Below are positions 5,583 through 22,361 of a stretch of DNA of 64,000 nt, piece after piece (within the stretch, counting starts at the first letter, position 1; the number at the start of each line of letters is the position of its first letter). Origin of the DNA: Fluviicola chungangensis (GTDB lineage: Bacteria > Bacteroidota > Bacteroidia > Flavobacteriales_D > Crocinitomicaceae); contig NZ_VLPL01000002.1 in assembly GCF_007558725.1 (NCBI RefSeq), positions 558,001 to 622,000 of the forward strand, in the 5' to 3' direction. The notes beneath the pieces were generated by a model that saw only the letters and a list, made by a program, of their open reading frames with translations, had not been told where the DNA came from and did not search any database. Made by a program: the position numbers and the translations under genes.

Positions 5583-5846
5583 TTAGTTGATCGGAAAACG
5601 AAAAAGTTCACTCAAAGAAATGTCCAAAGCCTTGGAAATCTGATAGATCATGCAGGTAGTTACATTGTTTTCTCCCCGTTCAATTCGACCGATCTGCTTA
5701 CCGGAATTTCCGACCAGGAATCCCAGGTCTTCCTGGGTCATTTTTTTGGCCAATCTCAGTTCGCGCACCCTGTTTCCAAGGGCATTCAGAAAATCTTTAT
5801 CTACCACATTTTGCACATACAAGAGTGGAGGTTTAAAAAAAACCAT
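5583..5846 (-). CDS. XRE-family HTH transcriptional regulator
   Basis: An 87-residue protein with a Cro/C1-type HTH: LGNRVRELRLAKKMTQEDL, then GKQIGRIERGENN and ISKALDISLSELF, about residues 22-82. There is no effector domain, so it would act as a small dimeric repressor or activator. The start at 5846 is the first ATG; the hydrophobic first 12 residues are unusual, and a later start near residue 16 is possible with GTG or GAT context. It is divergent from the RiPP locus whose precursor begins at 6208, and no other regulator is nearby, so it is a reasonable candidate regulator of that locus. That role is inferred from position only. Confidence 0.8.
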   Translation of the reverse strand: MVFFKPPLLYVQNVVDKDFLNALGNRVRELRLAKKMTQEDLGFLVGNSGKQIGRIERGENNVTTCMIYQISKALDISLSELFRFPIN

Positions 5847-6066
5847 AAAAGCCCATGTATGGGTTATTTTTCTGTTTTTGATTACTTTTGGTCAAAGGGG
5901 AAAGGATTTAAAAAAGTAGAACTAACCGATGTTTTTGTCCACTGATAGCTACTCAATATTCTAAATAATAACCTATTAAATATGAAAAAGCACTATTCCG
6001 AAAATGACATACGTGTCACTATCTGATACACAGCGAAACAAATAACTTGAAAATAGTTGAAAAAAT
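5847..6066. other. Intergenic region upstream of the RiPP locus
   Basis: This 220-base AT-rich stretch separates the XRE gene from the structured leader. It contains TACTTTTG at 5883-5890 on the plus strand, a possible -7 box without a clear -33 partner. It also contains the inverted repeat TGACA-TACG-TGTCA at 6005-6018, a possible operator. A 14-codon open frame starting MKKHYSEND (about 5981-6025) covers that repeat; its coding status is unknown. Confidence 0.35.
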
Positions 6067-6160
6067 GGAGGTGCGGTAACACCTCCTTGCATTTCGGCAG
6101 TTTACCGGCTCCCGGCAATGCAAACACTTTGCCTTAGCAGTTGGGCCGAAAATGCTAAGG
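6067..6160 (+). promoter_or_regulatory. Candidate structured RNA leader of the RiPP operon
   Basis: Three consecutive perfect stems lie 48 bases or more upstream of the precursor start: GGAGGTG/CACCTCC (6067-6073 with 6080-6086), TTGCATT/AATGCAA (6087-6093 with 6117-6123) and CCTTAGCA/TGCTAAGG (6132-6139 with 6153-6160). The 6-base loop of stem 1 (CGGTAA, 6074-6079) is perfectly complementary to TTACCG inside stem-loop 2 (6102-6107). The loop of stem 3 contains GCCGAAA (6145-6151), complementary to TTTCGGC at 6092-6098. This combination suggests a compact RNA with pseudoknots or alternative pairings. I do not recognise it as a known riboswitch class. Positions are accurate to about one base. 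Confidence 0.45.
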
Positions 6161-6207
6161 TAAAGGTAAGGAAATAGAGTAGGCGAAATAAAATAATACA
6201 TTCAATT

Positions 6208-6417
6208 ATGAATAAAACACTTGAATCTTTACAATCGAAGAAATTTGATTCAAAAAGCCTGATTGGAATATCAGGAGGTGAAACTACCTACGGGCCGGCA
6301 CGTGAAACACGTTATGACGGATTTGGAGGACAGGACGGAGATACTGCAGCTACGACTTACAATCCGCCAAATTATCCGGCAGGAACACAAGGAACTGATT
6401 ATTTGCCTAAGAGATAA
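6208..6417 (+). CDS. Grasp-with-spasm RiPP precursor peptide (double-Gly leader)
   Basis: A 69-residue peptide. The first 24 residues form a leader rich in Leu, Lys and Ser that ends LIGISGG, a typical double-glycine site for the C39 peptidase encoded downstream. The predicted 45-residue core has no Cys but is rich in Thr, Tyr, Gly, Pro and acidic residues, as expected for a substrate of an ATP-grasp ester/amide ligase that links Thr/Ser/Lys side chains to Asp/Glu. Four T-x-Y-x-[PG] motifs are visible: TTYGP at 26-30, TRYDG at 34-38, TTYNP at 49-53 and TDYLP at 63-67. A second GG at 40-41 could be an alternative cleavage point. A strong stem-loop follows the stop. It is the only precursor seen in the locus. 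Confidence 0.82.
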   Translation: MNKTLESLQSKKFDSKSLIGISGGETTYGPARETRYDGFGGQDGDTAATTYNPPNYPAGTQGTDYLPKR

Positions 6418-6431
6418 TCGGATTTGATCAT

Positions 6432-6462
6432 AATCCCCTGCTTTAGACGAAAGCAGGGGATT
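6432..6462 (+). terminator. Strong stem-loop between precursor and processing genes (attenuator/processing site)
   Basis: A perfect 13-bp stem (6432-6444 with 6450-6462, AATCCCCTGCTTT in the left arm) with loop AGACG sits 15 bases after the precursor stop. It is followed by A-rich rather than T-rich DNA, so it is not a canonical intrinsic terminator on this strand. In peptide operons such a hairpin commonly lowers downstream expression or protects the 3' end of the precursor mRNA; that function is inferred. Confidence 0.6.
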
Positions 6463-6484
6463 CCAAAAAATAAACCAATAGAAA

Positions 6485-7384
6485 ATGAAAAAGGTACTTT
6501 TCCTGTTTGGCATGCTTGTTAGTGCCTGTTCCTACGGACAATTTAATCACATTCAATACAAAACGGATTGCGATGTGGCATACCGCTTTGCAATTGACAG
6601 TTTGAATTATTCGAAATGTTTGGGCCAATTGTCAAAAGTGAGTAAGAAATATGGAAAGCTGTATTGCGAGGAATACATTCTCATGGCCCATTGCTACAAG
6701 AAACAGGGAAAAGGAACCAAAAGTGCCAAATGTTTGAGAAAGGCGTGGTCGAATTACGGATTTGATATGGCTTGTCTCACTCAGATAAAACAGATCGACC
6801 TTGGAGAAATAAACAAGGGCTACACCGCTAAACAGCAAAAATTCGTGCAGCAGGGTTTTGACAATTTTGCGAAACTGAAAAGAAGCAATACGGATTCCCT
6901 GATGCTTGTTTTGCAGACCATGCTGGAAGCAGACCAGGTACCGAGAATGAAATTTTATTCGGATACGCCTATTGATACCGTTGCTGTTAACCGGGAAATA
7001 GCACAAACCGATTCCGTCAACATGATCGCATTTAAGGAGATTATTTACAAACTGGGTTATCCCGGTGAATGGATTTTGCCGGGCAACTCTTCCCAGGCAT
7101 TCGTGCTGCTAGTTCATTCTTCCTATAATCAGGCCTTTTTTGACGAAATGCAACCTGTTTTGCTGCATGAAGTAATACAAGGCAGGATGCCTCCGAGTTA
7201 CTATGCTTTGTGGCTGGACAGGCATAATTCTGTAAGGGATTTGCCTCAGGATTATGGAATGCTGGCGGTTCCGGCGAATTTAAATCTTACGGAAAAACAG
7301 AAGCAAGCTATTGCAGCGAACCGTTTAAAAATCGGTTTGATTAAGAATTGCCCGATTCCTACACAATTACTGATGTTCAGATGA
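6485..7384 (+). CDS. Exported DUF6624-like protein of the RiPP locus
   Basis: A 299-residue protein with a signal peptide (MKKVLFLFGMLVSACSYGQ). Cys15 and the SACS context could alternatively be read as a weak lipobox. Residues about 25-100 are Cys-rich with TPR-like helices (YCEEYILMAHCYKKQGKG). The C-terminal half has the pattern of DUF6624: LGYPGEW, FVLLVHSS, FFDEMQPVLL, YYALWLDRHNS, LPQDYGM. The function of this domain is unknown. The start follows the stem-loop after the precursor, and the stop overlaps the ATP-grasp start in an ATGA, so it is translationally coupled to the maturase. It would act in the periplasm or outer membrane and may serve immunity, folding or export of the peptide; nothing in the sequence decides which. 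Confidence 0.72.
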   Translation: MKKVLFLFGMLVSACSYGQFNHIQYKTDCDVAYRFAIDSLNYSKCLGQLSKVSKKYGKLYCEEYILMAHCYKKQGKGTKSAKCLRKAWSNYGFDMACLTQIKQIDLGEINKGYTAKQQKFVQQGFDNFAKLKRSNTDSLMLVLQTMLEADQVPRMKFYSDTPIDTVAVNREIAQTDSVNMIAFKEIIYKLGYPGEWILPGNSSQAFVLLVHSSYNQAFFDEMQPVLLHEVIQGRMPPSYYALWLDRHNSVRDLPQDYGMLAVPANLNLTEKQKQAIAANRLKIGLIKNCPIPTQLLMFR

Positions 7385-8364
7385 TACTGGTTTTTACGGA
7401 ACGGGCTGATTTGAACTCGCGGATCGTTCTTTCTTATTTGAATAACTATGAGGAACCATTTGAAGTGTTTTTGGAAGATGACGCGATTGAATTGGAATAC
7501 CTTATTAATATTAATCGGAATCAGTTTGATTACCGGATCTACAAAAACCATCGGTTCGTATGCGATTCCAGTGATTTAAAATCTGTTTGGTACAGGAGAA
7601 CGGACATCCAGGTTTATCGTTTCGGGACAGGTGAATTTTCCCAGGAAGGATTGAAAACGTATTCCCGGGAGCACATGAATACCCGGTACGAACAAATCCA
7701 AAGGTGTTTTCATGCTAAAAGATGTTTGGGAAAATTTGGATTTGGTAATTACAATAAAATTGAATTCCTGGAACAATGCATTTCTCTGAATATTGAAATC
7801 CCCGGAACACTGATTACAGGCTCCAAACAACACTTGCTGGAATTTTGGAAAAACTGCAGGGGAGGAATTATTACAAAATCACTCGCATTTCCATTTGAAT
7901 GCGTCAATTATAGTCAATCGGGAGAAGCGGACAGTTACCGGATGGGATATACTATTTCAGTGGGCGAAGCCGAATTGGAATCGCTGCCAGATTTTTTTGA
8001 TCTGAGCCTTTTCCAGGAGAAGCTGGATAAACTGTTTGAAATACGGGCCATTTATTTGAATGGTAGCGTTTATTCGGAGGCAATTTTTTCCCAAAGCCGG
8101 GAAGTTGCGGCATTGGATTACCGGTTGGGATACGACTCAGGGATGAGAATGTGCAATTATACTTTGCCGGATACCATTGAGGAACAGGTTCAAAGACTCA
8201 TGGAAAAACTGGATCTGAATTTCGGGTCGCTTGACATCGTGGTTACAACGGATAAAAGATATGTGTTCCTGGAAGTCAATCCAAACGGGCAATATGGTGC
8301 AGTTTCTCAAACAACCAACTCGAACGTCGACTACCAGGTCGCAAAATTTTTAATGAACAAATGA
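7381..8364 (+). CDS. gwsG: Grasp-with-spasm system ATP-grasp peptide maturase
   Basis: A 327-residue ATP-grasp ligase. The ATG at 7381 is preferred over an ATG 33 bases upstream because it gives MILVFTERAD and an ATGA overlap with the preceding stop. VWYRR at 69-73 resembles the segment found in microviridin-type graspetide ligases. LEQC-N-PGTLITG near 128-145 and the catalytic, metal-binding FGSLDIV and EVNPNGQYG (E298, N300) complete the fold. By family analogy it phosphorylates Asp/Glu side chains of the precursor and forms omega-ester or omega-amide macrocycles with Thr/Ser/Lys. Its neighbours, a SPASM protein and a C39 exporter, define the grasp-with-spasm class. The exact linkage pattern is not predictable. 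Confidence 0.88.
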   Translation: MILVFTERADLNSRIVLSYLNNYEEPFEVFLEDDAIELEYLININRNQFDYRIYKNHRFVCDSSDLKSVWYRRTDIQVYRFGTGEFSQEGLKTYSREHMNTRYEQIQRCFHAKRCLGKFGFGNYNKIEFLEQCISLNIEIPGTLITGSKQHLLEFWKNCRGGIITKSLAFPFECVNYSQSGEADSYRMGYTISVGEAELESLPDFFDLSLFQEKLDKLFEIRAIYLNGSVYSEAIFSQSREVAALDYRLGYDSGMRMCNYTLPDTIEEQVQRLMEKLDLNFGSLDIVVTTDKRYVFLEVNPNGQYGAVSQTTNSNVDYQVAKFLMNK

Positions 8365-8367
8365 GTA

Positions 8368-8559
8368 ATGGAAGGAATTAACACAGCGGATGCGCTTTTA
8401 TCAAAAAATTTCCCGGTTGCAGATCTTGATCAGAAAATGAAAAAAAAGGAAGAACGGGCCAGGATTGCTATCCAAAAACTAAAAATGGACCGGTTGGAGT
8501 GTTTGAACGAACCGCTGTCACCCATTTCACTGATAATTGATTATTCCAAAAAAATATGA
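8368..8559 (+). CDS. Small hypothetical protein between the two maturases
   Basis: A 63-residue soluble protein, strongly helical and charged in its middle (QKMKKKEERARIAIQKL), with a single Cys. The ATG at 8368 begins three bases after the ATP-grasp stop, and the stop overlaps the SPASM gene start in an ATGA, so it is embedded in the operon. I recognise no family. It has no leader or GG motif and no export signal, so it is unlikely to be a second precursor. It could be a leader-recognition or adaptor subunit for the maturase complex; this is a guess from size and position. Confidence 0.6.
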   Translation: MEGINTADALLSKNFPVADLDQKMKKKEERARIAIQKLKMDRLECLNEPLSPISLIIDYSKKI

Positions 8560-9641
8560 ACGCAATTAAAAACGGGCAGGTATTGAAGTTATATCCGAAT
8601 GTGATTCCGGTGAAGGGATATAATCGTTCGATGCTTGTTGATTTGCAAAAAGCAGCAGCTCATCTGGTTCCGAATGACCTGGTTGATTATTTGGAGTATC
8701 CTGCTGTTTCGGCGGTTGAAGAATATACGAATTTTATTATTGAAAACGAACTGGGTTTGTTTGTTGACCGGGAGATTGCCGCCTGTTTAACACCACTTCC
8801 AACAGATTATTATCCTGCCTCCAAAATTAATAATGCAATAATTGAACTGGACAAGAATTCTTCATGGAGCCTTCCGGCTGTTTTAGACCAATTGGATGAA
8901 CTGGGGACACAGTTCCTGGAAGTCAGATTTCTGGACTTTTATTCAGTGGTGAATAACCTCAGATTGCTGCAAGTATTTAGCAATGAAACCACCATTGAGT
9001 CCATTCAGCTGTTGGTTCCTTTTCATAAGGACCTGAAAGCTTTGTTGGATTCATCCTTGAATGAGCGCTTTTTTCGATTGAGTACGATCCTTGTTTACAA
9101 CGCTTCGGAAGGGTTTGAGCTGGAGGTGGATTTTTACAAGCTGGTTTTTACCGGACAGGAAGCGGTTTCGCAGGAACATTGCGGGAATATCTCTAGGAAC
9201 TATTTTAGACCGAATACCCAGTCATATATACGCAGCAGGAATTACAACAGTTGTTTGGCTCACAAGATCAGTGTTGATAAAAACGGATTGATTGCGAATT
9301 GCCCTTCCATGAACGTGACATTTGGTCATGTCGATCATACTTCTTTTTCAGAAGTGCTTGCAGGAAACGATTTTCAAAAAAAGTGGGGATTGACAAAAGA
9401 TAAAATCAGTATTTGTTCCGTCTGCGAGTTCCGGGCAATTTGTACCGATTGCAGAGCCTTTACAATGGATAATGCAGAAAATGGCAAGCCTTCCAAATGT
9501 GGTTATAATCCATTCATCAGTCTTTGGAAAGGGGAAGAAAACTATTTATCAGAACAGGATTGCGGTATACGCATCGAAAATGACGGGATATTTATTCCGG
9601 AAGAAAAAATCAATGAAATAAATACAAGAATATGGGGATGA
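8556..9641 (+). CDS. gwsS: Grasp-with-spasm system SPASM-domain peptide maturase
   Basis: A 361-residue protein. The C-terminal 130 residues form a SPASM domain with cysteines at about 233, 249, 287, 290, 296, 299 and 314 (ICSVCEFRAICTDCR is the core), which would bind auxiliary iron-sulfur clusters. The N-terminal 230 residues resemble a radical-SAM barrel in length and layout but have no CxxxCxxC motif, so they cannot bind the radical-generating cluster in the usual way. This is the hallmark of grasp-with-spasm systems. The protein may act as a scaffold that binds the leader and core. It overlaps the small gene before it and the OmpA gene after it. Confidence 0.85.
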   Translation: MNAIKNGQVLKLYPNVIPVKGYNRSMLVDLQKAAAHLVPNDLVDYLEYPAVSAVEEYTNFIIENELGLFVDREIAACLTPLPTDYYPASKINNAIIELDKNSSWSLPAVLDQLDELGTQFLEVRFLDFYSVVNNLRLLQVFSNETTIESIQLLVPFHKDLKALLDSSLNERFFRLSTILVYNASEGFELEVDFYKLVFTGQEAVSQEHCGNISRNYFRPNTQSYIRSRNYNSCLAHKISVDKNGLIANCPSMNVTFGHVDHTSFSEVLAGNDFQKKWGLTKDKISICSVCEFRAICTDCRAFTMDNAENGKPSKCGYNPFISLWKGEENYLSEQDCGIRIENDGIFIPEEKINEINTRIWG

Positions 9642-10390
9642 AATTATATGCATTCATACTTGTTTTGAGCCTGTTTTCTTATTCGGGCTTGCAGGCGCAG
9701 GAATTCGCTGAAATCAAATTAGCCGATTCCGTTTCCATCTCCTTTGATGTCGGAAGTTCCGTAGTGCGAAACTCAACTGCATTTTTGAATAAGGTCAATC
9801 ACCGCAAACTGGCATACGGGAAAATCAAACTTGTTGCTTACACAGATACGATCGGAAGCGTTTCATACAATAAAGCCCTCGCGTCAAAAAGATTGGGTTC
9901 CGTTTTGAAACTTGTGGAGTCATCAAATATGAAAGATTTCATCATAGACACACTGAATAAGAACGAGGAAAGAAGAACGAGCCGGAATGACGAAGAGGCA
10001 TTTCGCAGAGTGGATGTGTTTGTATACGAAATAAAGCCAACCATTAAGTACAATGTTCCGATAAACCTTCGGATCAATTTCCATTCCGGAAGCAGTAATA
10101 TCGTGAAGGGTTCCATGGAGAACATGAGAATTCTTGAAATGCTGATGAAAAGTGATACGACAATTCGCATCAAACTAAACGGGCATGTTTGTTGTGAACC
10201 GGATATGAAGCTTTCTGTGGACCGGGCGGAAAAGGTAAAAAGTTACCTGGTTGAGCAAGGAATTCAAGCAAACAGGATCAGTTGTAAGGGATATTCGAAC
10301 GAAGCGAAACTTTTTCCGGAATCCAATGAAATCAATAAAAGCAGGAACATGCGAGTGGATGTTGTTTTTATTAAATCCGAACGCAAGTGA
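9638..10390 (+). CDS. Exported protein with two OmpA-like domains
   Basis: A 250-residue protein with signal peptide MKLYAFILVLSLFSYSGLQAQ. The second ATG (9638) is chosen because it overlaps the SPASM stop in an ATGA; an ATG six bases earlier is possible. The mature chain has two tandem OmpA-C-like repeats, about 28-130 and 135-250. The second has VDRAEKVKSYLVEQGI and NRISCKGYSNE and ends in an NKSRNMRVDV segment typical of the peptidoglycan-binding helix. The first ends FRRVDVFV in the same pattern. No beta-barrel is present, so it would be a soluble or periplasmic peptidoglycan-associated protein. Its place in a RiPP operon suggests anchoring of the export machine, but this is inferred. 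The stop overlaps the GTG start of the transporter. Confidence 0.78.
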   Translation: MKLYAFILVLSLFSYSGLQAQEFAEIKLADSVSISFDVGSSVVRNSTAFLNKVNHRKLAYGKIKLVAYTDTIGSVSYNKALASKRLGSVLKLVESSNMKDFIIDTLNKNEERRTSRNDEEAFRRVDVFVYEIKPTIKYNVPINLRINFHSGSSNIVKGSMENMRILEMLMKSDTTIRIKLNGHVCCEPDMKLSVDRAEKVKSYLVEQGIQANRISCKGYSNEAKLFPESNEINKSRNMRVDVVFIKSERK

Positions 10391-12603
10391 GAGCTTTTCC
10401 AATATACATGCAGCCGGATTCTATGGATTGCGGGCCAACCTGCCTTCGGATGATTGCCAGGCATTACGGTCGTTCCATTACGCTGGATAAATTGCGGAAC
10501 CTTTCCGAAACCACCCGTTTGGGAAGCAGTCTTCAGGGAATCAGCAGCGCAGCTGAAAGGATCGGATTCCGGACACTGGCGGTAAAAATCGATTTACAGG
10601 ATCTCATTCAAAATGCCCCGATGCCTTGTATGTGTTTTTGGAATCAAAGGCATTACATTGTTTTGTACCGGATTAAAAGAAACCGATTTTACGTTGCTGA
10701 TCCGGCAAGGGGGAAATTGATTTATTCAAAAAGTGAATTCCTGAAGAATTGGATCGGGGCACATGCCGATGAACGTACTGAAGAAGGCGTTTGTTTACTG
10801 CTTGAAACTACTCCTTCATTCGGGGAAAAAGAGGCCGAAGAAGTAAGAGACGGAAATGGCTTCCGATTTTTATTCAGCTACCTCAAAAAGTACCGAAGAT
10901 TATTGTTTCAACTTAGTTTCGGATTACTGGCATCGAGTCTTTTACAGCTAATCATTCCCTTCTTAACACAAAGTGTGGTAGACATCGGAATTCAAAATAA
11001 AGACATTCACTTCCTGTATTTGATTCTTTTCGGGCAATTAGCTGTATTCCTGGGCAGGATGAGCGCCGACATTGCCAGGAGTTGGATTTTACTGCATTTA
11101 AGCGCACGGATCAATATTTCATTGGTATCGGACTTCCTGGTAAAATTGATGAAACTGCCGATCTCTTTCTTTGATGGGAAGAAAATGGGGGATCTGATGC
11201 TGCGGATCGATGATCATTCCCGGATAGAAGTACTCCTTACAAATCAAACTCTGAATATTTTATTTTCGTTTTTCAATTTTTTGATTTTCAGCCTGGTATT
11301 GATTATTTATAGTTTACCGGTTTTTTTTATGTTCCTGGCAGGAAGCGGGATTTATTTCCTGTGGGTCCGATTTTTTCTCAGGAAACGAAAAGACCTGGAC
11401 TATGAACGTTTTTCACAAGGGGGAGAAGACCGGTCAAAAATAGTAGAACTGATACAAGGAATACAGGAAATCAAATTACACAATGCAGAAAGACAAAAGC
11501 GCTGGGCTTGGGAACGAATACAAGTAAAATTATTCAAACTCCGGATAAAAAGTCTCCGCCTGGAACAATTCCAAAGCAACGGAGCAACTTGTATTCATGA
11601 ACTAAAGAACATTCTTGTAAGCTTTTATACTGCCAAATTGGTTATAGACGGAGATCTGACTTTAGGGATGATGTTATCCATTTCCTATATCATCGGACAA
11701 TTAAATACCCCGATTTCCCAGTTCCTCGGATTCATTTATTCCGTTCAGGATGCTAAAATTTCGCTTGAGCGCTTGAATGAAATTCATACCAAAGAGGACG
11801 AAGAACCGGAAGATTCCCAACGATTAAACAGGCTTCCGGAGAAAAAGGATCTGACGCTGAAAGAAATCAGTTTTCGATACACAGGAACAGAAAAGAATGT
11901 GCTGGAAGGAATAAATCTCACCATTGAATCCGGTTGTTTGACTGCAATTGTGGGTGCCAGCGGAAGTGGAAAAACGACCCTGATGAAATTGCTTTTGCGG
12001 TTTTACGAACCCACGAGTGGAAAAATCAGCATAGATTCGATGGACTTGGAAAATTTTACGCAGCAAGTCTGGAGAGCAAATTGTGGTTCGGTCATGCAGG
12101 ATGGATACATTTTTAATGATACCATAGCACATAATATTGCATTGGGAGAAGAAATGGTTGATTGGAAAAAATTAAAGCACGCCGTTGAAGTCGCTAATAT
12201 CCGGGAATTCATTGAGTCACTCCCGCAGAATTACAACACTAAAATCGGGAATGAGGGAATAGGGATCAGTGGCGGTCAGAAACAACGCATCTTGATAGCA
12301 AGGGCTGTTTATAAGAATCCAAGCTTTCTTTTTTTTGATGAAGCGACCAGTTCACTGGATTCAAGAAACGAGAAAATAATCATGGAAAACCTGGATCGGT
12401 TTTTCCGGGGAAGAACAGCGGTAGTGATTGCGCACCGGTTAAGTACGGTAAAAAATGCCGACCAAATTGTTGTATTGGATCAGGGCAGATTGGTGGAAAG
12501 GGGTACCCACAAAGAATTGATTGCGATAGGAGGTACATACTATGCACTGGTCCAAAGCCAACTTGATCTGGAAAAAAGCGGAAGCGCTGAAATCCATTCC
12601 TGA
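10387..12603 (+). CDS. C39-peptidase-containing ABC exporter (PCAT)
   Basis: A 738-residue bifunctional exporter. The start is the GTG at 10387, which overlaps the previous TGA. Residues 1-130 are a C39 bacteriocin-processing peptidase: MDCGPTCL holds the catalytic C15, with H89 (NQRHYIVLY) and D105 (VADPARG). Residues about 165-450 are the six-helix ABC membrane domain. The nucleotide-binding domain has Walker A GASGSGKTT near 522, signature ISGGQKQR near 627, Walker B FLFFDEATSSLD near 648 and the switch IAHRLST. It would cleave the precursor after GG and pump the core into the periplasm, working with the HlyD and TolC proteins encoded next. All catalytic residues are intact. Confidence 0.95.
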   Translation: MRAFPIYMQPDSMDCGPTCLRMIARHYGRSITLDKLRNLSETTRLGSSLQGISSAAERIGFRTLAVKIDLQDLIQNAPMPCMCFWNQRHYIVLYRIKRNRFYVADPARGKLIYSKSEFLKNWIGAHADERTEEGVCLLLETTPSFGEKEAEEVRDGNGFRFLFSYLKKYRRLLFQLSFGLLASSLLQLIIPFLTQSVVDIGIQNKDIHFLYLILFGQLAVFLGRMSADIARSWILLHLSARINISLVSDFLVKLMKLPISFFDGKKMGDLMLRIDDHSRIEVLLTNQTLNILFSFFNFLIFSLVLIIYSLPVFFMFLAGSGIYFLWVRFFLRKRKDLDYERFSQGGEDRSKIVELIQGIQEIKLHNAERQKRWAWERIQVKLFKLRIKSLRLEQFQSNGATCIHELKNILVSFYTAKLVIDGDLTLGMMLSISYIIGQLNTPISQFLGFIYSVQDAKISLERLNEIHTKEDEEPEDSQRLNRLPEKKDLTLKEISFRYTGTEKNVLEGINLTIESGCLTAIVGASGSGKTTLMKLLLRFYEPTSGKISIDSMDLENFTQQVWRANCGSVMQDGYIFNDTIAHNIALGEEMVDWKKLKHAVEVANIREFIESLPQNYNTKIGNEGIGISGGQKQRILIARAVYKNPSFLFFDEATSSLDSRNEKIIMENLDRFFRGRTAVVIAHRLSTVKNADQIVVLDQGRLVERGTHKELIAIGGTYYALVQSQLDLEKSGSAEIHS

Positions 12604-12605
12604 TT

Positions 12606-13895
12606 ATGGAAGAGAAAAGAGACATCGATATGGAATTGAAAAGCGAGCAGATGAATGAAATGCTTTCAAATCCGCCTTCCTGGATCGTCAGATCCGGTAA
12701 CGGAGTTCTTCTCATCGCTTTATTGGTTTTAATTGTCCTTGCCTGGTTCATTCGTTATCCCGATGAAATAAGTGGTGAAGTGTCGATAACATCGTCGCAA
12801 GCACCCATTGAATTATCGAACCAAAGTTATATTCAGTTAAAAACATTGAATGTTACGGAAAATCAGGAAGTAAAAGCTGGTGATCTGATCGCTCAGTTTG
12901 ATGTTCAGGCTAAACAGACAGACATTTTGACAGCAACGCATTACCTGGATGTGCTTGAAAGAATGAAGGGACATTTTCCAGCGTTTATTCCTGAATTTAA
13001 AGAACAAATTTATTTGGGAGCTTTCCAGGAACAGTGGGCCGCGCTCCTTTTCAATATTCGATTGTGGAATAATGAATACAAGCAAAATACAAGTGCCAGG
13101 GAATTGGCTTTCATCCGGAAAGAAATCTCCTACCGCGAACAATTGCAACTGATATCAGGAAAGAAAATCCGGCTTTCGGAAGATGAATACGAAATGATTG
13201 CAGAGCAACGGGCAGGAAGTGAACGGCTTGCGGAGCAACAAGCAATTTCGAAACAAACCCTGAACCAGGATATGCGCTTGCAGATGCAGGCAATGCAAAC
13301 TGTCCAGGCTCAAAGAGAACAACAGGTTCAAAATTTGATTGCCTTGAATGCGCTGAGAAAAGACGAGTTGCGTTTGGAACATGAGGCCAGATTGCAAAAA
13401 CTGCAAAATGCGGTTGAAATTCAAAAGAACCTGGCGGCCCTTCGGAACAGTTTTCAAAATTGGGAGAAGCATGCAGTCTGGATTGCGCCGTGTTCCGGAA
13501 GGATACTTTTTAATAAGCTTTTGCAGGTGAACCGGTTTTACAAGGCAGGCGAAGCATCCCTGGTGATTGTTCCGGAAGGAAAAGGCTACCGGGCTGTTGC
13601 GCGTATTTCCAGTTCGGGAGCAGGGAAGTTGAAAACCGGTCAGAAAGCATTTATTGAGCTCATTGATTACCCGAAAACGGAATTTGGAATGCTCGAAGGG
13701 AAAGTAAACAGTTTAACTCAAATGGATAAAGAAGGAAAATACGAAGTTCAAATAATCCTGCAACATCCATTAAAAACCACTTACAACAAAGAAATTCCGC
13801 CGAAAGTACAATTGAAAGGAAAAGTCAAGATCCTTACAAAGGACAAACGCTTGCTGGCGCGTTTCTTTGAACAATTAACCGATTTGATCAAATGA
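12606..13895 (+). CDS. HlyD-family membrane fusion protein
   Basis: A 429-residue periplasmic adaptor. A short cytoplasmic N-terminus is followed by one membrane helix at about 33-50 (GVLLIALLVLIVLAWFI). Then come the first half of the barrel-sandwich (NQEVKAGDLIAQFD), a long coiled-coil hairpin at about 130-290 rich in Gln, Glu and Arg, and the second half with beta-barrel (CSGRILFNKL, then GKLKTGQKAFIELIDYP). It links the inner-membrane ABC exporter to the outer-membrane channel. It starts two bases after the transporter stop, and its stop overlaps the TolC-type gene by ATGA, so all three are coupled. Confidence 0.92.
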   Translation: MEEKRDIDMELKSEQMNEMLSNPPSWIVRSGNGVLLIALLVLIVLAWFIRYPDEISGEVSITSSQAPIELSNQSYIQLKTLNVTENQEVKAGDLIAQFDVQAKQTDILTATHYLDVLERMKGHFPAFIPEFKEQIYLGAFQEQWAALLFNIRLWNNEYKQNTSARELAFIRKEISYREQLQLISGKKIRLSEDEYEMIAEQRAGSERLAEQQAISKQTLNQDMRLQMQAMQTVQAQREQQVQNLIALNALRKDELRLEHEARLQKLQNAVEIQKNLAALRNSFQNWEKHAVWIAPCSGRILFNKLLQVNRFYKAGEASLVIVPEGKGYRAVARISSSGAGKLKTGQKAFIELIDYPKTEFGMLEGKVNSLTQMDKEGKYEVQIILQHPLKTTYNKEIPPKVQLKGKVKILTKDKRLLARFFEQLTDLIK

Positions 13896-15169
13896 AGTGG
13901 AATGTTTTCATCGGATTTATAGTGGCCGGTTCTATTGCGTATGGACAGGGGGTACTTTCATTACAATCCTGCCTGGACAAGGTCGAAGAAAATTCCTTGC
14001 AAACGCTCACGGAAGTGAACCTGGTCAGCAGTGCGAAAGTCACGCTGCAATTCCATTGGTGGACCTTACTTCCCATGTTAAATGCAACGTCCGGAGTCAA
14101 TACCTCTTTTGGTCGAAGATTGGATCCGTTCACAAATACATTCGCCACAAGTTCCGTAAATTCCCAATCGTTTGGATTGAATTCAAGCGTTCCAATAGTG
14201 AATGGGTTTTCTTATTTCCATAAACGAAACTTCTTAAAGGCAAGCATCGAAAGGGATGAAACGGGGTTGAAAAGGAAGTTGAATGAATTAAAGATCCGTG
14301 CGGTCGAAACCTACCTGACTTTGTGTGATCTTTCAGTACGAACAGAGTTGGCGGAATTGCGTATTGAAAAATACAAGCAGATCCAGGATATTCAAAAATT
14401 GCTGATCAATGAAGGACGAATAAATGCAATAGATACCTTAAAGAGTCACTATTCGCTGCTGAACGAACAGGATGTATTGGTGAATCTTCTGCACGAAGCG
14501 AAACTAATGGAAATCGATCTGAACTTCCAAATGGGGTTGCCACTTAATACTGAACATACAGTCGATATTTCTTCTTTGTTTGTTAGCGAAGAAAAGGTGC
14601 AATTCGAAGAGGTTTACCTGGCGGAATTGGTTGAAGCGGAATTGGAATTAACGGAAAATCAATGGAAGATCGAACGGTCTAAACTGTTCCCGGTTATTTC
14701 ACTGAATGGATTGGTAGGTACCGGTTTTTCAACCAATAATAAGAACTATTTGCTGGATGGGACTCCAACAAAACCGTATCTTGGTCAGATCCGGGAGAAT
14801 TTGTATGAAGGAATCGGGTTTTACCTGAATATTCCCCTGTTCAATCGTGGCGAATGGCTTAAAACCAGGCAACTAAGCAGGATTAAGCAGACTGAATTAA
14901 CCGGTAAGGTGGAATTGACCAATCAGCTTTTGGAAAAGAGGCAGTTAGAGCACAGGCAGGCGCGTTTAAACCTGAAAGCAAAACTGGAACAAAACAAACA
15001 ACAGATTAACAATCTGGAAATGATTTACACCAAAAGCATCCTGCTCTACCGGGAAGGCCGATTAACGTATCCCGAATTGGAAGCGGCTCTGATGGAATGG
15101 CAGGTGAAGCTCGCGGAATGCGAACGGTTGAAATTGGATAACCAACTATTAGAACACTATGAATACTGA
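13892..15169 (+). CDS. TolC-family outer-membrane efflux protein
   Basis: A 425-residue protein with signal peptide MKWNVFIGFIVAGSIAYGQG. Two similar halves of long amphipathic helices alternate with beta segments, as in OEP/TolC proteins; examples are SLQSCLDKVEENSLQTLTEV in the first repeat and TYPELEAALMEWQVKLAECE near the C-terminus. It should trimerise and form the outer-membrane exit duct for the ABC-HlyD exporter. The start overlaps the HlyD stop, and the stop overlaps the next small gene by 11 bases. Confidence 0.9.
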   Translation: MKWNVFIGFIVAGSIAYGQGVLSLQSCLDKVEENSLQTLTEVNLVSSAKVTLQFHWWTLLPMLNATSGVNTSFGRRLDPFTNTFATSSVNSQSFGLNSSVPIVNGFSYFHKRNFLKASIERDETGLKRKLNELKIRAVETYLTLCDLSVRTELAELRIEKYKQIQDIQKLLINEGRINAIDTLKSHYSLLNEQDVLVNLLHEAKLMEIDLNFQMGLPLNTEHTVDISSLFVSEEKVQFEEVYLAELVEAELELTENQWKIERSKLFPVISLNGLVGTGFSTNNKNYLLDGTPTKPYLGQIRENLYEGIGFYLNIPLFNRGEWLKTRQLSRIKQTELTGKVELTNQLLEKRQLEHRQARLNLKAKLEQNKQQINNLEMIYTKSILLYREGRLTYPELEAALMEWQVKLAECERLKLDNQLLEHYEY

Positions 15170-15509
15170 CAATTCACTGAACATTTCTTTTGAGGACCTG
15201 TTTAGATTACTGATGGGTCTCATTGCGGACGATTTAAAGGTGCAGCGGCATTTGTATCACCTGAGCCTGAGCGGGTTGGACACGACTCCCTTGCAATTGG
15301 ACCTGCACCGCAGCATTTTTATCCTGGCCGGATTTAAGGAAGCCACTATTTCCGAAGAACTGGAGGAATGGTATTTTGAACAAACGCTGCGCGTGAATGA
15401 CGCAGAGCTGGTACCGGACGAACAAGCACTAACTCATTTGTCTGCAGAGATCCTGGAAGGATTGCTGAAGCGGCGGAATGAGGTATACGGCAGGAAAATG
15501 GCCAATTAA
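15159..15509 (+). CDS. Hypothetical protein, last gene of the RiPP operon
   Basis: A 116-residue acidic cytoplasmic protein without signal peptide or membrane helix. It begins inside the end of the TolC-type gene and is followed by an intrinsic terminator at 15584-15610. The sequence is mostly helical (ISFEDLFRLLMGLIADDLKVQ, then EELEEWYFEQTLRV and LSAEILEGLLKRRNEVYG). I recognise no family. Being co-transcribed with the exporter, it may be an immunity or accessory factor, but no motif supports a particular activity. Confidence 0.65.
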   Translation: MNTDNSLNISFEDLFRLLMGLIADDLKVQRHLYHLSLSGLDTTPLQLDLHRSIFILAGFKEATISEELEEWYFEQTLRVNDAELVPDEQALTHLSAEILEGLLKRRNEVYGRKMAN

Positions 15510-15766: not shown

Positions 15767-15950
15767 ATAATGAATAAAAACATACCGCTCATTATTTGAG
15801 CGGTTTAAAAATATTTATCTAACTTAGAAATGTTAAACCAAACTAGAATTACTGCAACTCAGACAATCCAACTATTCACCTTCTTTTGTATCTACTCAAA
15901 GAAGCCTTGCCATTGGCTTGGTTAGTGGGAATTCATTCATTTTATCACTG

Positions 15951-15982
15951 TTCTTATCAATTGATAAAACCTGTTTTTTATA
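15951..15982 (+). repeat. 32-bp direct repeat with TATCAATTGATA palindrome, copy 1
   Basis: This 32-base stretch is identical to 17609-17640. It covers the 5' end of both T9SS type B paralogues, including the inferred TTG start and the first codons (MIKPVF). A 12-base perfect palindrome TATCAATTGATA (15955-15966) straddles the start codon. The identity exceeds that of the rest of the two genes, which suggests gene conversion or a constrained regulatory site. Confidence 0.65.
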
Positions 15983-16953
15983 TCACTATTTTCCTTCTCT
16001 TGCTTGTGAAACCATTACAAGCGCAGCTAAACTTGGTTCCAAACGGGAGCTTTGAGGAATACACCGTTTGCCCAACGAGTAATGAACTTAACAATGGTCA
16101 ATTCGAACGCGTAGAAAATTGGTGGAGACCAACTGAATCCACTCCAGACTATTATAATCGCTGTAATAATGGAATCGTAGATATACCTTCAAACTTTTGG
16201 GGATATCAAGAAGCTTTCCAGGGGGACGGGTACGTTGGTTTCGGAGCAATATCCTGGAACATTACCGGTGAAAATTTAGGTAATGAATATTTCAGAACTC
16301 AATTAGTTGAACCATTAAAACCTTGTGTAAGATATAGATTTTCTATGTATGTATCGTTAGCAGAAGCCAGTAGTTATGGTGTCGGAGATATCGGAGCTTT
16401 TTTTTCCACTGATGATAATTACTTATCTACTATGCTTTCAATAATTGAAGAGCCTCAAATAATATATGACGGGGTTCCAATCATTGATACATCCAATTGG
16501 ACTAAAATCGAAGGAACCTTTATTGCAAATGGATTTGAGAGGTATCTTACAATTGGTTATTTTAGAGATAATGTCACATTGGATACTTTGTTTTTACAAG
16601 ATTTTGGACCGTCGATTCAAGTTAAAGAGGCACTATATTATGTGGATAGCATCTCGCTTGTAGAATTAAATTATGTATCTACGGAATTATGCGATGCCAA
16701 GAATATTGTTTTTCCAAATATTATTACACCAAATGATGATCATATTAATGATGAATTGGATATTTCTAATTACCTAGGGATTATCAATGAAATTATAATA
16801 TCTAATAGATGGGGAGATATTGTTACAATTCTCAATGGTGAAAATCCAATATGGAACGGAGAGGGATTATCGGATGGGTTATATTTTTACCGTTTCACAT
16901 TAGAATTAGATAACAAAATTCAAAAGACAGGTTTTATTCAGTTAATGAGATGA
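15961..16953 (+). CDS. T9SS type B sorting-domain surface protein (paralogue 1)
   Basis: A protein of 330 residues if started at the TTG at 15961, which aligns with the TTG start of the paralogue at 17619; the frame is open further upstream from an ATG at 15886. The signal peptide is IKPVFYITIFLLLLVKPLQAQ. The mature N-terminus LVPNGSFEEY resembles carbohydrate-binding jelly-roll domains, with conserved Cys and Trp residues (NRCNNG, NFWGYQE) shared with the paralogue. The last 80 residues form a gliding-motility-associated C-terminal (CHU_C, type B) sorting domain: FPNIITPNDDHIND, SNRWGD, WNGEGLSDGLYFYRF. It should cross the outer membrane by T9SS. The DNA is more AT-rich than the neighbouring operon. 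Confidence 0.82.
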   Translation: MIKPVFYITIFLLLLVKPLQAQLNLVPNGSFEEYTVCPTSNELNNGQFERVENWWRPTESTPDYYNRCNNGIVDIPSNFWGYQEAFQGDGYVGFGAISWNITGENLGNEYFRTQLVEPLKPCVRYRFSMYVSLAEASSYGVGDIGAFFSTDDNYLSTMLSIIEEPQIIYDGVPIIDTSNWTKIEGTFIANGFERYLTIGYFRDNVTLDTLFLQDFGPSIQVKEALYYVDSISLVELNYVSTELCDAKNIVFPNIITPNDDHINDELDISNYLGIINEIIISNRWGDIVTILNGENPIWNGEGLSDGLYFYRFTLELDNKIQKTGFIQLMR

Positions 16954-16983
16954 TGAAAGAAGCGGATATTTTGGAATACCTGA

Positions 16984-17238
16984 TTATAAAAGAATAGAAT
17001 CGTCTTCCAGATATTTTTTAAGAAAATCAATATCTAGTTTTAAAACAAAGCAGATTTTTAGCAATGTTACAATTGGAAGAGTAGATTCATAATTTTCAAT
17101 GCGTCGGATTTGTTTTTCATCCAAACCGGTTTCTGATGCTAATAAAGATCGTGATATAGCTAATTCTTCCCTGCGAAGCCGAATCTTTTCACTGATCTGT
17201 TTGATTACGATTCTCTCTTTTTCATTACTCACATTCAA
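16984..17238 (-). CDS. XRE-family HTH transcriptional regulator
   Basis: An 84-residue protein made almost only of a Cro/C1-type HTH: ISEKIRLRREELAISRSLLA, then TGLDEKQIRRIENYES and a C-terminal helix ending in KKYLEDDSILL. It lies antisense between the two T9SS type B paralogues and converges with the first. A 17-base inverted repeat 27 bases upstream (17265-17281) is a likely autoregulatory operator. It may control the flanking surface genes, an inference from position. It differs in sequence from the XRE gene at 5583-5846. Confidence 0.8.
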   Translation of the reverse strand: MNVSNEKERIVIKQISEKIRLRREELAISRSLLASETGLDEKQIRRIENYESTLPIVTLLKICFVLKLDIDFLKKYLEDDSILL

Positions 17239-17264
17239 AGGTGCTGTATGAAAAAAACAATAGC

Positions 17265-17281
17265 TCGGACAAAGTGTCCGA
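17265..17281. promoter_or_regulatory. Inverted repeat TCGGACA-AAG-TGTCCGA, candidate XRE operator
   Basis: Perfect 7-base arms with a 3-base spacer lie between the XRE gene start and, on the plus strand, a TATATTTG box (17289-17296) facing the second T9SS paralogue. A dimeric HTH protein bound here could control both directions. Confidence 0.5.
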
Positions 17282-17608
17282 ATTAATTATATATTTGAGT
17301 ATTAATGATGAGCGTAAATAGCTTACGTTCCCGAAAACTAATTTTGCAACGATTCACAACTGAAAACATTAAACCTTTATTTAAAACTATTCACCGGCGG
17401 AGCCATCTAACTTTAAGTTGGCCTGTCTGCGGGATGCAGGCACTTTGAAAATTCATTACCCGAATGGGCAAAGTAATCACTATTTATTAACCCTATAAAC
17501 TGAAAGTCAATGAGAAAATAATCCAACCTTTGATATATTAAGTCGTCTACCGGGTGTGGACGATTGAATCTTGAAATGATAGAGATTCTTTACTAATTTT
17601 ATAATCAA
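17282..17608. other. Long leader/intergenic region before T9SS paralogue 2
   Basis: About 330 bases with no gene. Small stem-loops are visible: CGTAA/TTACG near 17315-17330, GCCTG/CAGGC near 17421-17440, CCC/GGG near 17458 and TCGTC/GACGA near 17544-17566. If TATATTTG at 17289-17296 is the promoter, the mRNA would have a structured leader of about 300 bases. I recognise no known RNA class. Confidence 0.4.
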
Positions 17609-17640
17609 TTCTTATCAATTGATAAAACCTGTTTTTTATA
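17609..17640 (+). repeat. 32-bp direct repeat with TATCAATTGATA palindrome, copy 2
   Basis: Identical to 15951-15982. The palindrome is at 17613-17624, and the TTG start of the downstream gene is at 17619. Confidence 0.65.
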
Positions 17641-18587
17641 GTATTCTTTTTTTAACCCTATTCGCATTCCCTTTTGGTTTTGCACAGACCAACTTGGTCT
17701 ATAATGGAGGGTTTGAGGAATATTATTCCTGTCCTGTTTCAAATGATTTAAATAATGGGCAGTTGGAACTCTGTAAAGGCTGGTGGAAGCCAACCATGGG
17801 AACAAGCGATTACTTTAATCGTTGTAATAATACCGGAGTAGGTGTACCGAACAATTTTTGGGGGTATCAGGAAACGTTTGAAGGAAATAGTTATGTAGGG
17901 TTGTTCCCAATAGATTGGTATATTAATTCTGGTGAATATTTTGGTTCCGAATATATACAAACACAACTTTTGGATCTCTTAACCCCATGCGTTGAATATC
18001 ATTTTGAAATGCAGGTGAATTTTGCCAATTATTCCCGTTATGGATTTTCGAGATTGGGAGCTTTATTTACTCAGAACCCTATTCATTCGACCACCTGGGA
18101 TGCAATCACTTTAAACCCTCAAATTCTGAATAATCAAGGAATCTTGGTAGATACGCTTAATTGGGTGAAAGTTGAAGGTAATTTTATTGCCTCCGGAAAT
18201 GAACAATACCTATGTATTGGTTATTTTTTTGACAATGTACAGAATGATACAGTTAATTTTCAGCCTCCTGTTGGATTTCCCGAGGAGGGGGGGGGGTATT
18301 ATTATATTGATAATGTCTCGTTAACTGAAATCGGGGTTGTTCCGAACTGTGATTATTCGCTTCCGAATATCATAACACCAAATAATGATGGGATAAATGA
18401 CATTTGGGAATACAACTCTCCATCAGAAGGAGAACTAACCATTGTCAACAGATGGGGGAATACCGTATACCACGAAAAAGGAATTTCCTTTAGCTGGAAC
18501 GGAGGAGAATGTACCGACGGGGTTTATTATTACAGGTACAACTCTGAACTATTTTCGAAAACGGGTTTTATTCAGTTGATAAGGTAA
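17619..18587 (+). CDS. T9SS type B sorting-domain surface protein (paralogue 2, G10 tract)
   Basis: A 322-residue protein translated from a TTG start; no ATG occurs before the signal peptide (MIKPVFYSILFLTLFAFPFGFAQ). It is a full-length paralogue of the gene at 15961, sharing NGGFEEYYSCP, NRCNN, NFWGYQETFEG and the type B C-terminal domain (LPNIITPNNDGINDIW, VNRWGN, WNGGECTDGVYYYRY). A run of ten G residues at 18287-18296 encodes part of PEEGGGYYY, just before the sorting domain. A slip of one base would remove that domain and so block secretion. The next gene follows after 12 bases and is probably co-transcribed. Confidence 0.82.
   Translation: MIKPVFYSILFLTLFAFPFGFAQTNLVYNGGFEEYYSCPVSNDLNNGQLELCKGWWKPTMGTSDYFNRCNNTGVGVPNNFWGYQETFEGNSYVGLFPIDWYINSGEYFGSEYIQTQLLDLLTPCVEYHFEMQVNFANYSRYGFSRLGALFTQNPIHSTTWDAITLNPQILNNQGILVDTLNWVKVEGNFIASGNEQYLCIGYFFDNVQNDTVNFQPPVGFPEEGGGYYYIDNVSLTEIGVVPNCDYSLPNIITPNNDGINDIWEYNSPSEGELTIVNRWGNTVYHEKGISFSWNGGECTDGVYYYRYNSELFSKTGFIQLIR
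18287..18296 (+). repeat. Homopolymeric G10 tract inside a surface-protein gene
   Basis: Ten consecutive G residues in coding sequence, in frame in this assembly. Such tracts are classical slipped-strand phase-variation sites; a sequencing artefact in tract length is also possible. Confidence 0.9.
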
Positions 18588-18599
18588 CACTTATTAAAT

Positions 18600-21500: not shown

Positions 21501-22361
21501 TACAATGCAATGATTCCAGTAAATACAATGGCAATCATTGAATTAAACGAGAAGGTTGATCGGGCAACACTTTCAGATCAAACCATGAAAACAAACGTGC
21601 AGGATCTAACAGGTTCATTGGACAAGGTGTTAGATATGCGTGGTGTGTCTTACGATTGGAATCATGCAGTAAATCCTGAAATGAATCTGGACAGTTTAAA
21701 TCACGTTGGCTTCATCGCACAGGAAATTGCACAGATCGATCCAAGATTAACTTACTTGGCGGATGACAGCTTATTGCATGTTGAATATGATAAGGTTGTT
21801 CCTATCCTTGCTGAAGCAATTCAGGAAATGAATGATTCAATCGAAGTAAGAGATTCTATTTTCAATATATTAATAACTGAAAACTCGACTCAGCAAACAA
21901 TTATTAATACATTATCAGCAGAAAATGCGTCTCAGCAATCTACTATTGATGATTTGAATAACCGATTAACTCAATTGGAAAACTGTTTGTCCGGAATCTT
22001 GCCTTACTTGTGTCAATTGAGCCACAGTGCAATCCAGGCAAATACACCTGAAACACAGGAAGAAGTTCGTAAGAACCTAAATGTGACATTGAGTAATCGC
22101 AATGCAATTGTATTGGATCAGAACGTACCGAACCCGTTTGCAGAACAAACCATTATCAACTTCTCTATTCCTGAAACGGTGAAGAAGGCGCAAATTCATT
22201 TCTACGATGGAAATGGTCGCTTTATGAATTCAGTTGATGTTATAGAAAGAGGCCTTGGCAGTGTGACTGTATTCGGATCTGATTTGAGTACCGGTGTTTA
22301 CACTTACACTTTGGTTGCAGATGGTCAAGTTGTCGCAACGAAGAAAATGATGAAACAATAG
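18600..22361 (+). CDS. Large tail-fiber/S74-like T9SS type A surface protein
   Basis: A 1253-residue protein with signal peptide MKRIILLGLTTLSILTTQAQ. The long N-terminal region (about 20-870) is Gly/Asn/Thr-rich beta structure. It includes an Asp-rich, possibly calcium-binding stretch near 580-600 (DLNGNGIPESNEDINNDGQ). Two segments near 880 and 990 look like chaperone-of-endosialidase (peptidase S74) domains: SDQQFKTNV with FGFIAQEVE, and SDQTMKTNV with VGFIAQEIA. A coiled coil follows (about 1085-1130, repeated SQQ/TLSAEN), then a T9SS type A tail (VPNPFAEQT to KKMMKQ, about 1170-1253). This layout suits trimeric fibre proteins whose S74 domain aids folding. The stretch 20860-21230 is clearly more AT-rich than the start of the gene. 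Confidence 0.85.
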   Translation: MKRIILLGLTTLSILTTQAQVVPTISTPPNGGQTNGDYWSRAGNTTTGNNIFGTMWNSPIYTVTGNTFSSGNNYRTKLNGIFSGPNQYNINGFGWNQGINTTGYMLLGNNLNNFYTNMGAFSLLHLNTQSTGSIQEFGFRPWMKTGITLTGNSDLSYMGLRQLGTGEDVTETTIAWSDNAGSISGPDELTFRYTEGSGSTYNTNFANADDMDGRHIARFTGEGAMGLGNTFGINIGSSVNYARPMSLLHQSFQFVAGNGAEGNGFHQITYRRANGASSDIVGQGEAATDGLRFGIDNDVFNTGGVSYLNSYLRWQEASSFIVQTEDDATPNIQSNERLRVTSIGALSTNYNTILYDGLTASSNATRISISESGAAPLLRPKSLLHLGYDYGGLFNIQGYRKWMDLGMLTSNQRDHVWIGLKPRDSIVSTVSQTNDKLDAVVAWGTDREATSPTQVDNMRFIFTGHVFDVNPEGAPSTSYNGLEMMRMYPATVYTHPIYDASGTLIGNEKSYGRVGIGDFTASGVSGEPTQKLDVVGNARLRYLPDPAFARDSTVDKFVMVDSTGVLRWGYAPKGLSCWDLNGNGIPESNEDINNDGQWDALDCQGDDGPMGSFGAHNGTSLSTIDTTKVSLGQDLNQVGSPGRLLSNREIPMNNFNTIFTNAPGYDGNANRLGLGTSAPSAKLDITMTPTTPYSVPIALNISMNQAASNGQIIGQRMELFGNNTVNSGAKWSVQAGQTQSEGHLVMVHGNSTSNSSHQGIVGTCDVGGLPILNVGVAGAARGGKSTYGGNFNATGVAGSNITAGVHIHAQGTGNNKVYGLHAQIGGSGTGTAYGVFSDVLSTTANYTIGVYSNIYGNTNNPINRAGYFTGPVEATSFITTPSDQQFKTNVNPLVGSLKSIQGLKPVSYYMDNVNYSQFGFDSNLQFGFIAQEVETVFPNLVHESLHPAQYDSLGVETFPAVPYKSLNYNAMIPVNTMAIIELNEKVDRATLSDQTMKTNVQDLTGSLDKVLDMRGVSYDWNHAVNPEMNLDSLNHVGFIAQEIAQIDPRLTYLADDSLLHVEYDKVVPILAEAIQEMNDSIEVRDSIFNILITENSTQQTIINTLSAENASQQSTIDDLNNRLTQLENCLSGILPYLCQLSHSAIQANTPETQEEVRKNLNVTLSNRNAIVLDQNVPNPFAEQTIINFSIPETVKKAQIHFYDGNGRFMNSVDVIERGLGSVTVFGSDLSTGVYTYTLVADGQVVATKKMMKQ

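Follow-up and report, generated by a model that had tools for sequence, protein, structure and literature searches.

How a compact peptide operon of Fluviicola chungangensis modifies its product, and what governs the supply of the precursor, are questions raised by a locus in the 64,000-nucleotide (nt) stretch analysed here (NZ_VLPL01000002.1, positions 558,001–622,000 of the forward strand; the whole of it is called the window, and positions below count from its first letter). Fluviicola belongs to the Crocinitomicaceae within the Flavobacteriales, and in the 4.27 Mb genome that holds the window ten genes, all on the plus strand like every feature below for which no other strand is given, occupy 6208–15509. 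A sequence-only reading had described this tightly joined set, with its exporter, as a grasp-with-spasm locus for a ribosomally synthesized and post-translationally modified peptide (RiPP); the shared orientation and the junctions are as it described, and the family matches of the SPASM, C39-ABC, HlyD and TolC proteins support a grasp-with-spasm system with its own export. It missed a conserved RNA at 6064–6196, which moves the left edge of the locus farther upstream, and a 13-bp hairpin at 6432–6462. Taken together, the sequences make it probable that this is a grasp-with-spasm graspetide operon in which the precursor would be expressed under a structured leader RNA, an ATP-grasp ligase would close rings with the help of a non-radical SPASM partner, and a C39 peptidase with type I machinery would export the product. 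What is new here is an extended DUF805b-like leader RNA ahead of differing RiPP precursors, and a putative SPASM partner lacking the radical S-adenosylmethionine (SAM) site in every full-length member examined.

The leader RNA came to light when the upstream regions of eight loci were aligned: some 135 nt are conserved, with a mean column identity of 75% over seven copies. In the window this structured 5' untranslated region (6064–6196) ends 11 nt before the precursor ATG, scores 111.9 bits with the models R1/R2 described below, and has a fold z of −3.74 (6058–6200). At its 5' end lies the hairpin P1 (GGAGGUG/CACCUCC, 6067–6086), whose loop CGGUAA (6074–6079) pairs with UUACCG (6102–6107) to form a kissing pseudoknot. 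It is followed by the hairpin P3 (6127–6165, with arms at 6127–6139 and 6153–6165), recognised from fold, alignment, covariation and the match of a relative to DUF805b; its DUF805b-like loop, GCCGAAAA (6145–6152), offers a GCC that pairs with the GGC of the element GAGUAGGC (6177–6184) as a second pseudoknot, and GAGUAGGC ends 23 nt before the ATG. Model R1, built from seven copies, had an automatic structure with P1 and some other pairs and neither pseudoknot. At E ≤ 0.1 it found matches in 7 of 14 genomes of the genus and 18 of 120 of the family. Three features recur in the elements: at the 5' end a hairpin with a loop able to pair with a segment farther downstream, then P3 capped by a GCCGAAAA-type loop, and near the start codon GAGUAGGC.

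The two pseudoknots are borne out by comparison of these elements. Leaving aside four matches without the conserved core (L120, L121, L134 and L135), which also stay out of the open reading frame (ORF) counts below, and counting duplicates once, there are 29 distinct core-bearing elements; 27 of them have a perfect kissing complement of at least 6 nt, achieved through distinct loop sequences (CGGUAA, CGGCAA, CUACAA, CUGCAA, CUGUAA and longer forms), as against 9% when loop and target are swapped between elements that differ in their loops, and 3.5% for shuffled targets. Covariation was assessed for 29 pairs after MAFFT had aligned 27 elements blind to structure (A10, omitting L113 and L141), with 500 shuffles, none of which reached the observed values: 87.2% of cells are paired (77.4 in shuffles), 20 of the 29 pairs show double changes (12.2 ± 1.9 in shuffles; at most 11 in slid controls), and the covariation is 0.350 (0.186 ± 0.011 in shuffles; no higher than 0.118 with partners slid by 1–3 columns). 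By helix, pairing reaches 94.4% of cells for the kissing complement and 97.5% for the second pseudoknot, P3 being the weakest at 79.5%. Among the 20 rows that lie outside the training of R1, pairing holds in 111 of the 120 cells of the kissing helix and in 58 of the 60 of the second pseudoknot. In some weaker matches the GCCGAAAA core is replaced by another loop that possibly pairs before the start codon; among 2000 shuffles, 5 were as good for L174, 63 for L176, 346 for L175 and 1250 for L173, so that this pairing stands well above shuffles in the first, fairly so in the second, and is not distinct from them in the last two.

The same block lies between the precursor and a divergent gene for an 87-aa XRE-type helix-turn-helix (HTH) protein (5586–5846, minus strand; HTH_3, E 1.4e-11), a possible regulator; an 87-aa ORF occupies the same place on the minus strand in a related locus, L001 (8210–8473). 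Given this position, and since regulators also bind palindromic arms, the block might be imagined to work at the DNA level, serving that regulator as promoter or operator. This is very improbable: covariation is seen in pairings that cross one another as pseudoknots, some pairs are of the G-U kind, and conservation is among the highest in unpaired loops; the element also keeps a nearly constant orientation and spacing relative to the start codon, and in L123 its 3' half matches an RNA family of Rfam. As RNA, the roughly 135 nt before the precursor form, by their covarying pairs, a kissing hairpin and then a DUF805b-type hairpin paired with a GGC that lies some 23 nt from the start codon, and formation of the second pseudoknot would set the level of precursor translation.

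The kinship of this RNA with DUF805b (Rfam RF02914, a Cis-reg family of clan CL00115) lies in its 3' half: both have a hairpin with the GCCGAAAA loop followed by AGAGUAGGC near a start codon, and in both a GCC/GGC pseudoknot joins the GCCGAAAA loop and AGAGUAGGC, whereas the extra 5' kissing-loop hairpin and the much longer P3 stem set the window RNA apart. The relative L123 matches RF02914 at GCCGAAAA and AGAGUAGGC with 23.3 bits (E 9.1e-5), below the gathering score of 35.6. In the window every Rfam family stays below its gathering score, and matches of the element to families other than DUF805b (mir-184, MALAT1 and the like) are implausible. The RNA of the window would thus act in the manner of DUF805b, with which it has a common core, but by the Rfam cut-off it stands outside the family. 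Canonical DUF805b is itself present throughout the genus, matching at E ≤ 1 in all 14 genomes and above gathering in 8; the control genomes match at E ≤ 1 in all 14 and above gathering in none. Its pseudoknot covaries at all three pairs in an alignment (A11) of 18 of 20 loci (L156 and L160 omitted), which suggests that this pseudoknot characterises the DUF805b family. By eye, two loci, L178 (G106:C1) and L182 (G385:C158), have a further DUF805b-like core in tandem with the extended element, both ahead of a single ORF with a double-glycine (GG) leader, as if pseudoknot modules could be stacked. The literature searched yielded no ligand or function for DUF805b, no work joining a riboswitch with a RiPP precursor in Bacteroidetes, and none joining Fluviicola with structured RNA.

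The leader RNA is tied to peptide precursors by what follows it. Among the 21 core-bearing R1 matches at loci not used for training, from which L113 is omitted as a near-copy, 17 end 4–12 nt before a short GG-leader ORF; outside the genus such an ORF follows 17 of 18, the exception being L128, and the same ORF rule applied at random positions of those loci succeeds in 66 of 5400 cases (1.2%). The predicted cores of these 17 peptides and that of the window are mostly dissimilar, with 1 of 153 pairs similar at E ≤ 0.01 by blastp. Conversely, of the 14 loci in the genus that match the SPASM family TIGR04193, 12 have, on their own strand and no more than 4.5 kb upstream, the RNA or a DUF805b match, where 0.046 would be expected, and this holds for 5 of the 7 outside the training of R1. 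A second model, R2, was found in 33 of 399 genomes of the order, 32 of them in the family of the window, and in 4 of 395 genomes of the phylum, all except the one that holds the window being weak (E 0.004–0.008); the leader RNA is thus almost confined to that family. Its 33 genomes and the 32 with TIGR04193 overlap in 22 of the 399 (Fisher p 1e-20, a test that presumes the same 399 genomes in both searches and is uncorrected for kinship, which counts against leaning on it).

The reading drawn from these patterns is that a two-pseudoknot leader RNA with a DUF805b core may serve as a common translational switch of RiPP precursors in the Crocinitomicaceae, answering to one signal, and is found here with an ATP-grasp ligase and a non-radical SPASM partner; taken as a whole, we hold it tentatively, as close to evenly balanced with a slight lean towards doubt. 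Several observations pull the other way, also for the leader-RNA reading of the operon itself. The elements L117 and L122 precede a tail-fibre-like protein and L128 a non-RiPP protein; no RNA was detected at E ≤ 0.05 upstream of 2 of the 14 SPASM loci of the genus; of the 14 newly found R2 loci, which the downstream-ORF check covered, only 5 precede a GG-leader ORF, two running off the end of a contig; and the window copy itself scores only 12.9 bits against RF02914, with gathering at 35.6. In L123, which like L117 and L122 belongs to the genus, no GG-leader start was found within 40 nt. The leader RNA might instead be a general feature of secreted products, the peptide genes being merely part of a larger DUF805b regulon. 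Canonical DUF805b does stand 14–23 nt before an ORF in the 14 of 20 genus loci with a parsable core, and these ORFs are diverse, many of them secreted-looking by eye and only two being GG-leader peptides. In the other flavobacterial families searched it is, by eye, mostly not beside grasp loci, with G606 and G542 as exceptions among the matches listed. Against this more general role, the extended form with kissing hairpin and P3 precedes the GG-leader ORFs outside the genus far beyond the random rate given above. The broader regulon is a possibility to be taken seriously, albeit with more doubt than belief.

As for the enzymes, the SPASM protein (8556–9641) matches TIGR04193 with 242.2 bits (E 9.8e-72), exceeding the cut-off of 175; the motif CX3CX2C, which would hold the SAM cluster, is absent from all 35 full-length family members, the one in the window included. 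On the alignment of these 35 (A1, window numbering), the cysteines matching C287, C290, C296 and C315 are kept in every member; the other set, C209, C233, C249 and C299, is wholly present in 23 and wholly absent in 12, with no mixed row. We take these two quartets to be the ligands of the auxiliary clusters AuxII and AuxI, respectively, of known SPASM enzymes, and the window protein has all eight. In a phylum sample of 14 further loci, consisting of search matches with E below 1e-15 and a retrieved locus, CX3CX2C is absent from all 14, both cysteine patterns occur in nine, the second pattern only in three, and two ORFs are broken or truncated. At E ≤ 1, Pfam SPASM is matched by 9 of the 35 members and Radical_SAM is not among their Pfam matches; the SPASM profile searched against the PDB returned four chance-like matches and no radical-SAM structure.

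From these sequences it is concluded that the SPASM protein would operate without radical-SAM chemistry, and it is more likely a binding partner or scaffold. Such a role fits better than radical chemistry because CX3CX2C is absent and one cysteine quartet is kept or lost as a whole. The available text of PMC8939145 terms this class a radical SAM enzyme and proposes carbon-carbon, carbon-oxygen or thioether bonds, and that of PMC13097080 makes no statement that the radical-SAM part is missing. The SPASM protein could accordingly be imagined as a catalyst whose Fe-S clusters perform redox or radical chemistry on the core and add a second modification, in keeping with those proposed bonds and with the four cysteines kept in all 35 members. 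It is an unlikely alternative, in view of the missing SAM-cluster motif in the 35, the loss of the other four cysteines as a unit in 12 of them, and a precursor whose lack of Cys leaves no thioether to be made; thioether formation by this protein was rejected on the absent motif and the Cys-free core. The partner role has its own difficulties: Pfam detects no leader-binding domain in the SPASM protein or its relatives, and an AlphaFold run with four close sequences gave a pLDDT (predicted local distance difference test) of 38.8 and no usable model. Most likely, the SPASM protein, its cysteines kept for an iron-sulphur site, would together with the neighbouring 63-aa protein serve as partner or scaffold for leader and ligase.

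That 63-aa protein (8368–8559), in the 'LPL' position immediately 5' of the SPASM gene, which it overlaps by 4 nt, matched no family above cut-off, DUF4840 alone appearing at E 0.033. A small ORF lies immediately 5' of the SPASM gene in 37 of 40 loci, with the ATP-grasp end motif just upstream in 32 of 40, and 19 of the 40 small proteins of this position have a PIS-like C-terminal motif by the pattern used. That it is a leader supplied in trans has been considered, and the available text of PMC8939145 raises contact of the small protein with the ATP-grasp enzyme.

The ATP-grasp ligase (7381–8364) bears on what the rings would be. Of the grasp-with-spasm models that the earlier reading proposed as a check, the SPASM one is matched above its cut-off. 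For the ligase the best family is TIGR04192 (186.2 bits, E 8.7e-55), a score that speaks against a straightforward assignment in falling below the cut-off of 230; the enzyme does lie within the peptide-maturase families (MvdC 124 bits, GRASP_SAV_5884 108, MvdD 105; RimK only 28). Since the ATP-grasps that the genus has in operons of this type, seven with that of the window, all score below cut-off (185.8–201.3 bits; an eighth, in G085, is split), the low score suggests a side branch of the same enzyme and need not imply a different kind; in the 18 genomes searched, 23 of 49 TIGR04192 matches are above cut-off. Relatives in the PDB are 5ig8 (aligned over residues 24–325), 7m4s (AMdnB, 125–324), 5ig9 and 7mgv (CdnC), all of which we take to be graspetide ligases. 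The ATP-grasp alignment also found four weak loci in the viral contigs searched. ATP-grasp enzymes make linear ligations too, and with the score below the equivalog cut-off it might be supposed that this one ligates something else, an amino acid or another peptide, giving a product that is not ring-closed; the presumed graspetide ligases among its structural relatives and the Thr and Asp at conserved core positions make this quite improbable.

The precursor (6208–6417, 69 aa) has a leader of residues 1–24 ending in GG and a core of 45 with eight Thr/Ser, six Asp/Glu, one Lys and no Cys; it matched no Pfam or NCBIfam family, and its own family was found in 6 of the 14 genus genomes. T/S27, T34, D45, T50 and D64 are conserved in all seven sequences from seven loci. 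Because the two halves of the core begin with T/S-Y-G and T-Y-N, two ring modules are plausible. Judging from this conservation and from the enzyme family, the ATP-grasp enzyme would close ester (or amide) rings joining T27, T34 and T50 with D45 and D64. Between the precursor and the next gene lies the 13-bp hairpin (6432–6462; fold z −4.60), present at the same site in all eight loci examined and of differing sequence in the more distant ones; none of 200 shuffles folds as well in seven of the eight, and two do in L041. It is probably an attenuator or 3'-end stabiliser, and would fit an attenuator that yields more precursor than enzyme.

By these traits the operon adds a new member to the grasp-with-spasm graspetides already described from Bacteroidota ("branch 5" in the available text of PMC8939145), and apparently to "group 14" as given in the available part of PMC13097080. 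With the graspetides of those accounts it shares the ATP-grasp and SPASM genes, the small protein 5' of SPASM, the double-Gly precursor, the C39-ABC exporter and HlyD; it differs in the OmpA gene inside the operon, the Cys-free precursor and the SPASM protein without radical-SAM motif, and the leader RNA is a feature of the window of which the accessible text of both papers makes no mention. PMC8939145, as far as available, describes the Phhx(1,2)h leader motif as absent from branch 5 precursors. Microviridin-type ligases (NCBIfam MvdC/MvdD; 7m4s AMdnB) align with the ATP-grasp enzyme, the SPASM and small proteins being what the window has besides. In rosaritide, a partner-dependent graspetide in the available text of PMC13097080, one finds the common idea of a ligase needing a partner, which for the window is a prediction; the group 21 biosynthetic gene clusters of rosaritide carry a predicted peptidyl-prolyl isomerase (PPIase), where the candidate partner in the window is the SPASM protein.

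The remaining genes complete the export route. After a 67-nt gap behind the precursor, the junctions in gene order are −4, +3, −4, −10, −4, +2, −4 and −11 nt (minus for overlap). The DUF6624-like protein (6485–7384) matches Pfam PF20329 below threshold (E 1.3e-4, 22 bits; gathering 27), has an N-terminus that resembles a signal peptide by eye, gave no usable AlphaFold model with four close sequences (pLDDT 47.1) and is likely the 'cluster 23' protein of PMC8939145 as seen in its available part. Next to SPASM stands an OmpA-family protein (9632–10390; PF00691, E 1.5e-15), an ordinary member, which trims the 'four poorly known genes' of the sequence-only reading by one. Then come the C39 peptidase/ABC exporter with a GTG start (10387–12603; PF03412 1.1e-35, PF00005 2.1e-29), an HlyD-type adaptor (12606–13895; TIGR01843 1.5e-22, 80 bits, under its cut-off) and a TolC-type outer-membrane protein (OEP/TolC, 13892–15169; PF02321 9.8e-20). 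Going by these families, the C39 domain would cut after GG24 and ABC, HlyD and TolC would export the product by a type I route, the DUF6624-like and OmpA-like proteins acting outside the cytoplasm.

The gene order from precursor through DUF6624-like, ATP-grasp, 63-aa, SPASM, OmpA, C39-ABC and HlyD to TolC is shared with L001 and L003, and with L002 until its contig ends inside TolC (50–87% protein identity across these loci). The loci found by ATP-grasp are in a Fluviicola metagenome-assembled genome (MAG; 85% identical), a Flavobacteriales MAG (83%) and CP034120 (77%). The record CP034120.1 (L003; G130) is labelled Glaciecola amylolytica (Gammaproteobacteria), yet it groups in the genus of the window and is probably mislabelled. 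Two extra SPASM loci lie in the window's own genome: C18:2844 (L034) repeats the gene set, its small gene being recognised by position only, with a precursor 55% identical over the aligned part; C18:144701 (L035) is more distant, with no DUF6624, OmpA or 116-aa match by tblastn. In L045 (G085:C42) the ATP-grasp and C39-ABC genes each align as two overlapping pieces (about 9072–9081 and 11949–11959), as if frameshifted, which may reflect assembly error or decay.

The last of the ten genes, for a 116-aa protein (15159–15509) without Pfam or NCBIfam match, is probably a passenger. Its family occurs in 7 of the 14 genus genomes, three of them without a TIGR04193 match (G052, G127, G360), and in L107 (5470–5817, minus strand), L108, L109 and L110 no other operon genes are in the stretch, save an OmpA match about 10 kb off in L109. 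A dedicated part in the operon was rejected as unlikely on these grounds and, because the family is also found outside such loci, the right boundary drawn earlier was probably too wide. Beyond it, at 15886–22361, the operon is followed by two proteins of the CHU_C type (type IX signal) and by one of 1253 aa with Peptidase_S74 (endosialidase chaperone); elsewhere in the genus, tail-fibre-like proteins have the leader RNA before them (L117, L122).

For the chemistry of the class, the missing radical-SAM motif shifts what is to be expected of grasp-with-spasm products, towards water losses and a partner protein and away from radical crosslinks. As for the precursors of the class, even close relatives have divergent ones, which makes them difficult to detect; an RNA at a nearly fixed distance from the start codon may mark them independently and open a way to induce them. 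A regulon made up of peptide precursors and other proteins likewise makes the function of DUF805b testable. If the proposed switch is real, then a single signal, be it a metabolite, an ion or a protein, would induce chemically unrelated secreted peptides together.

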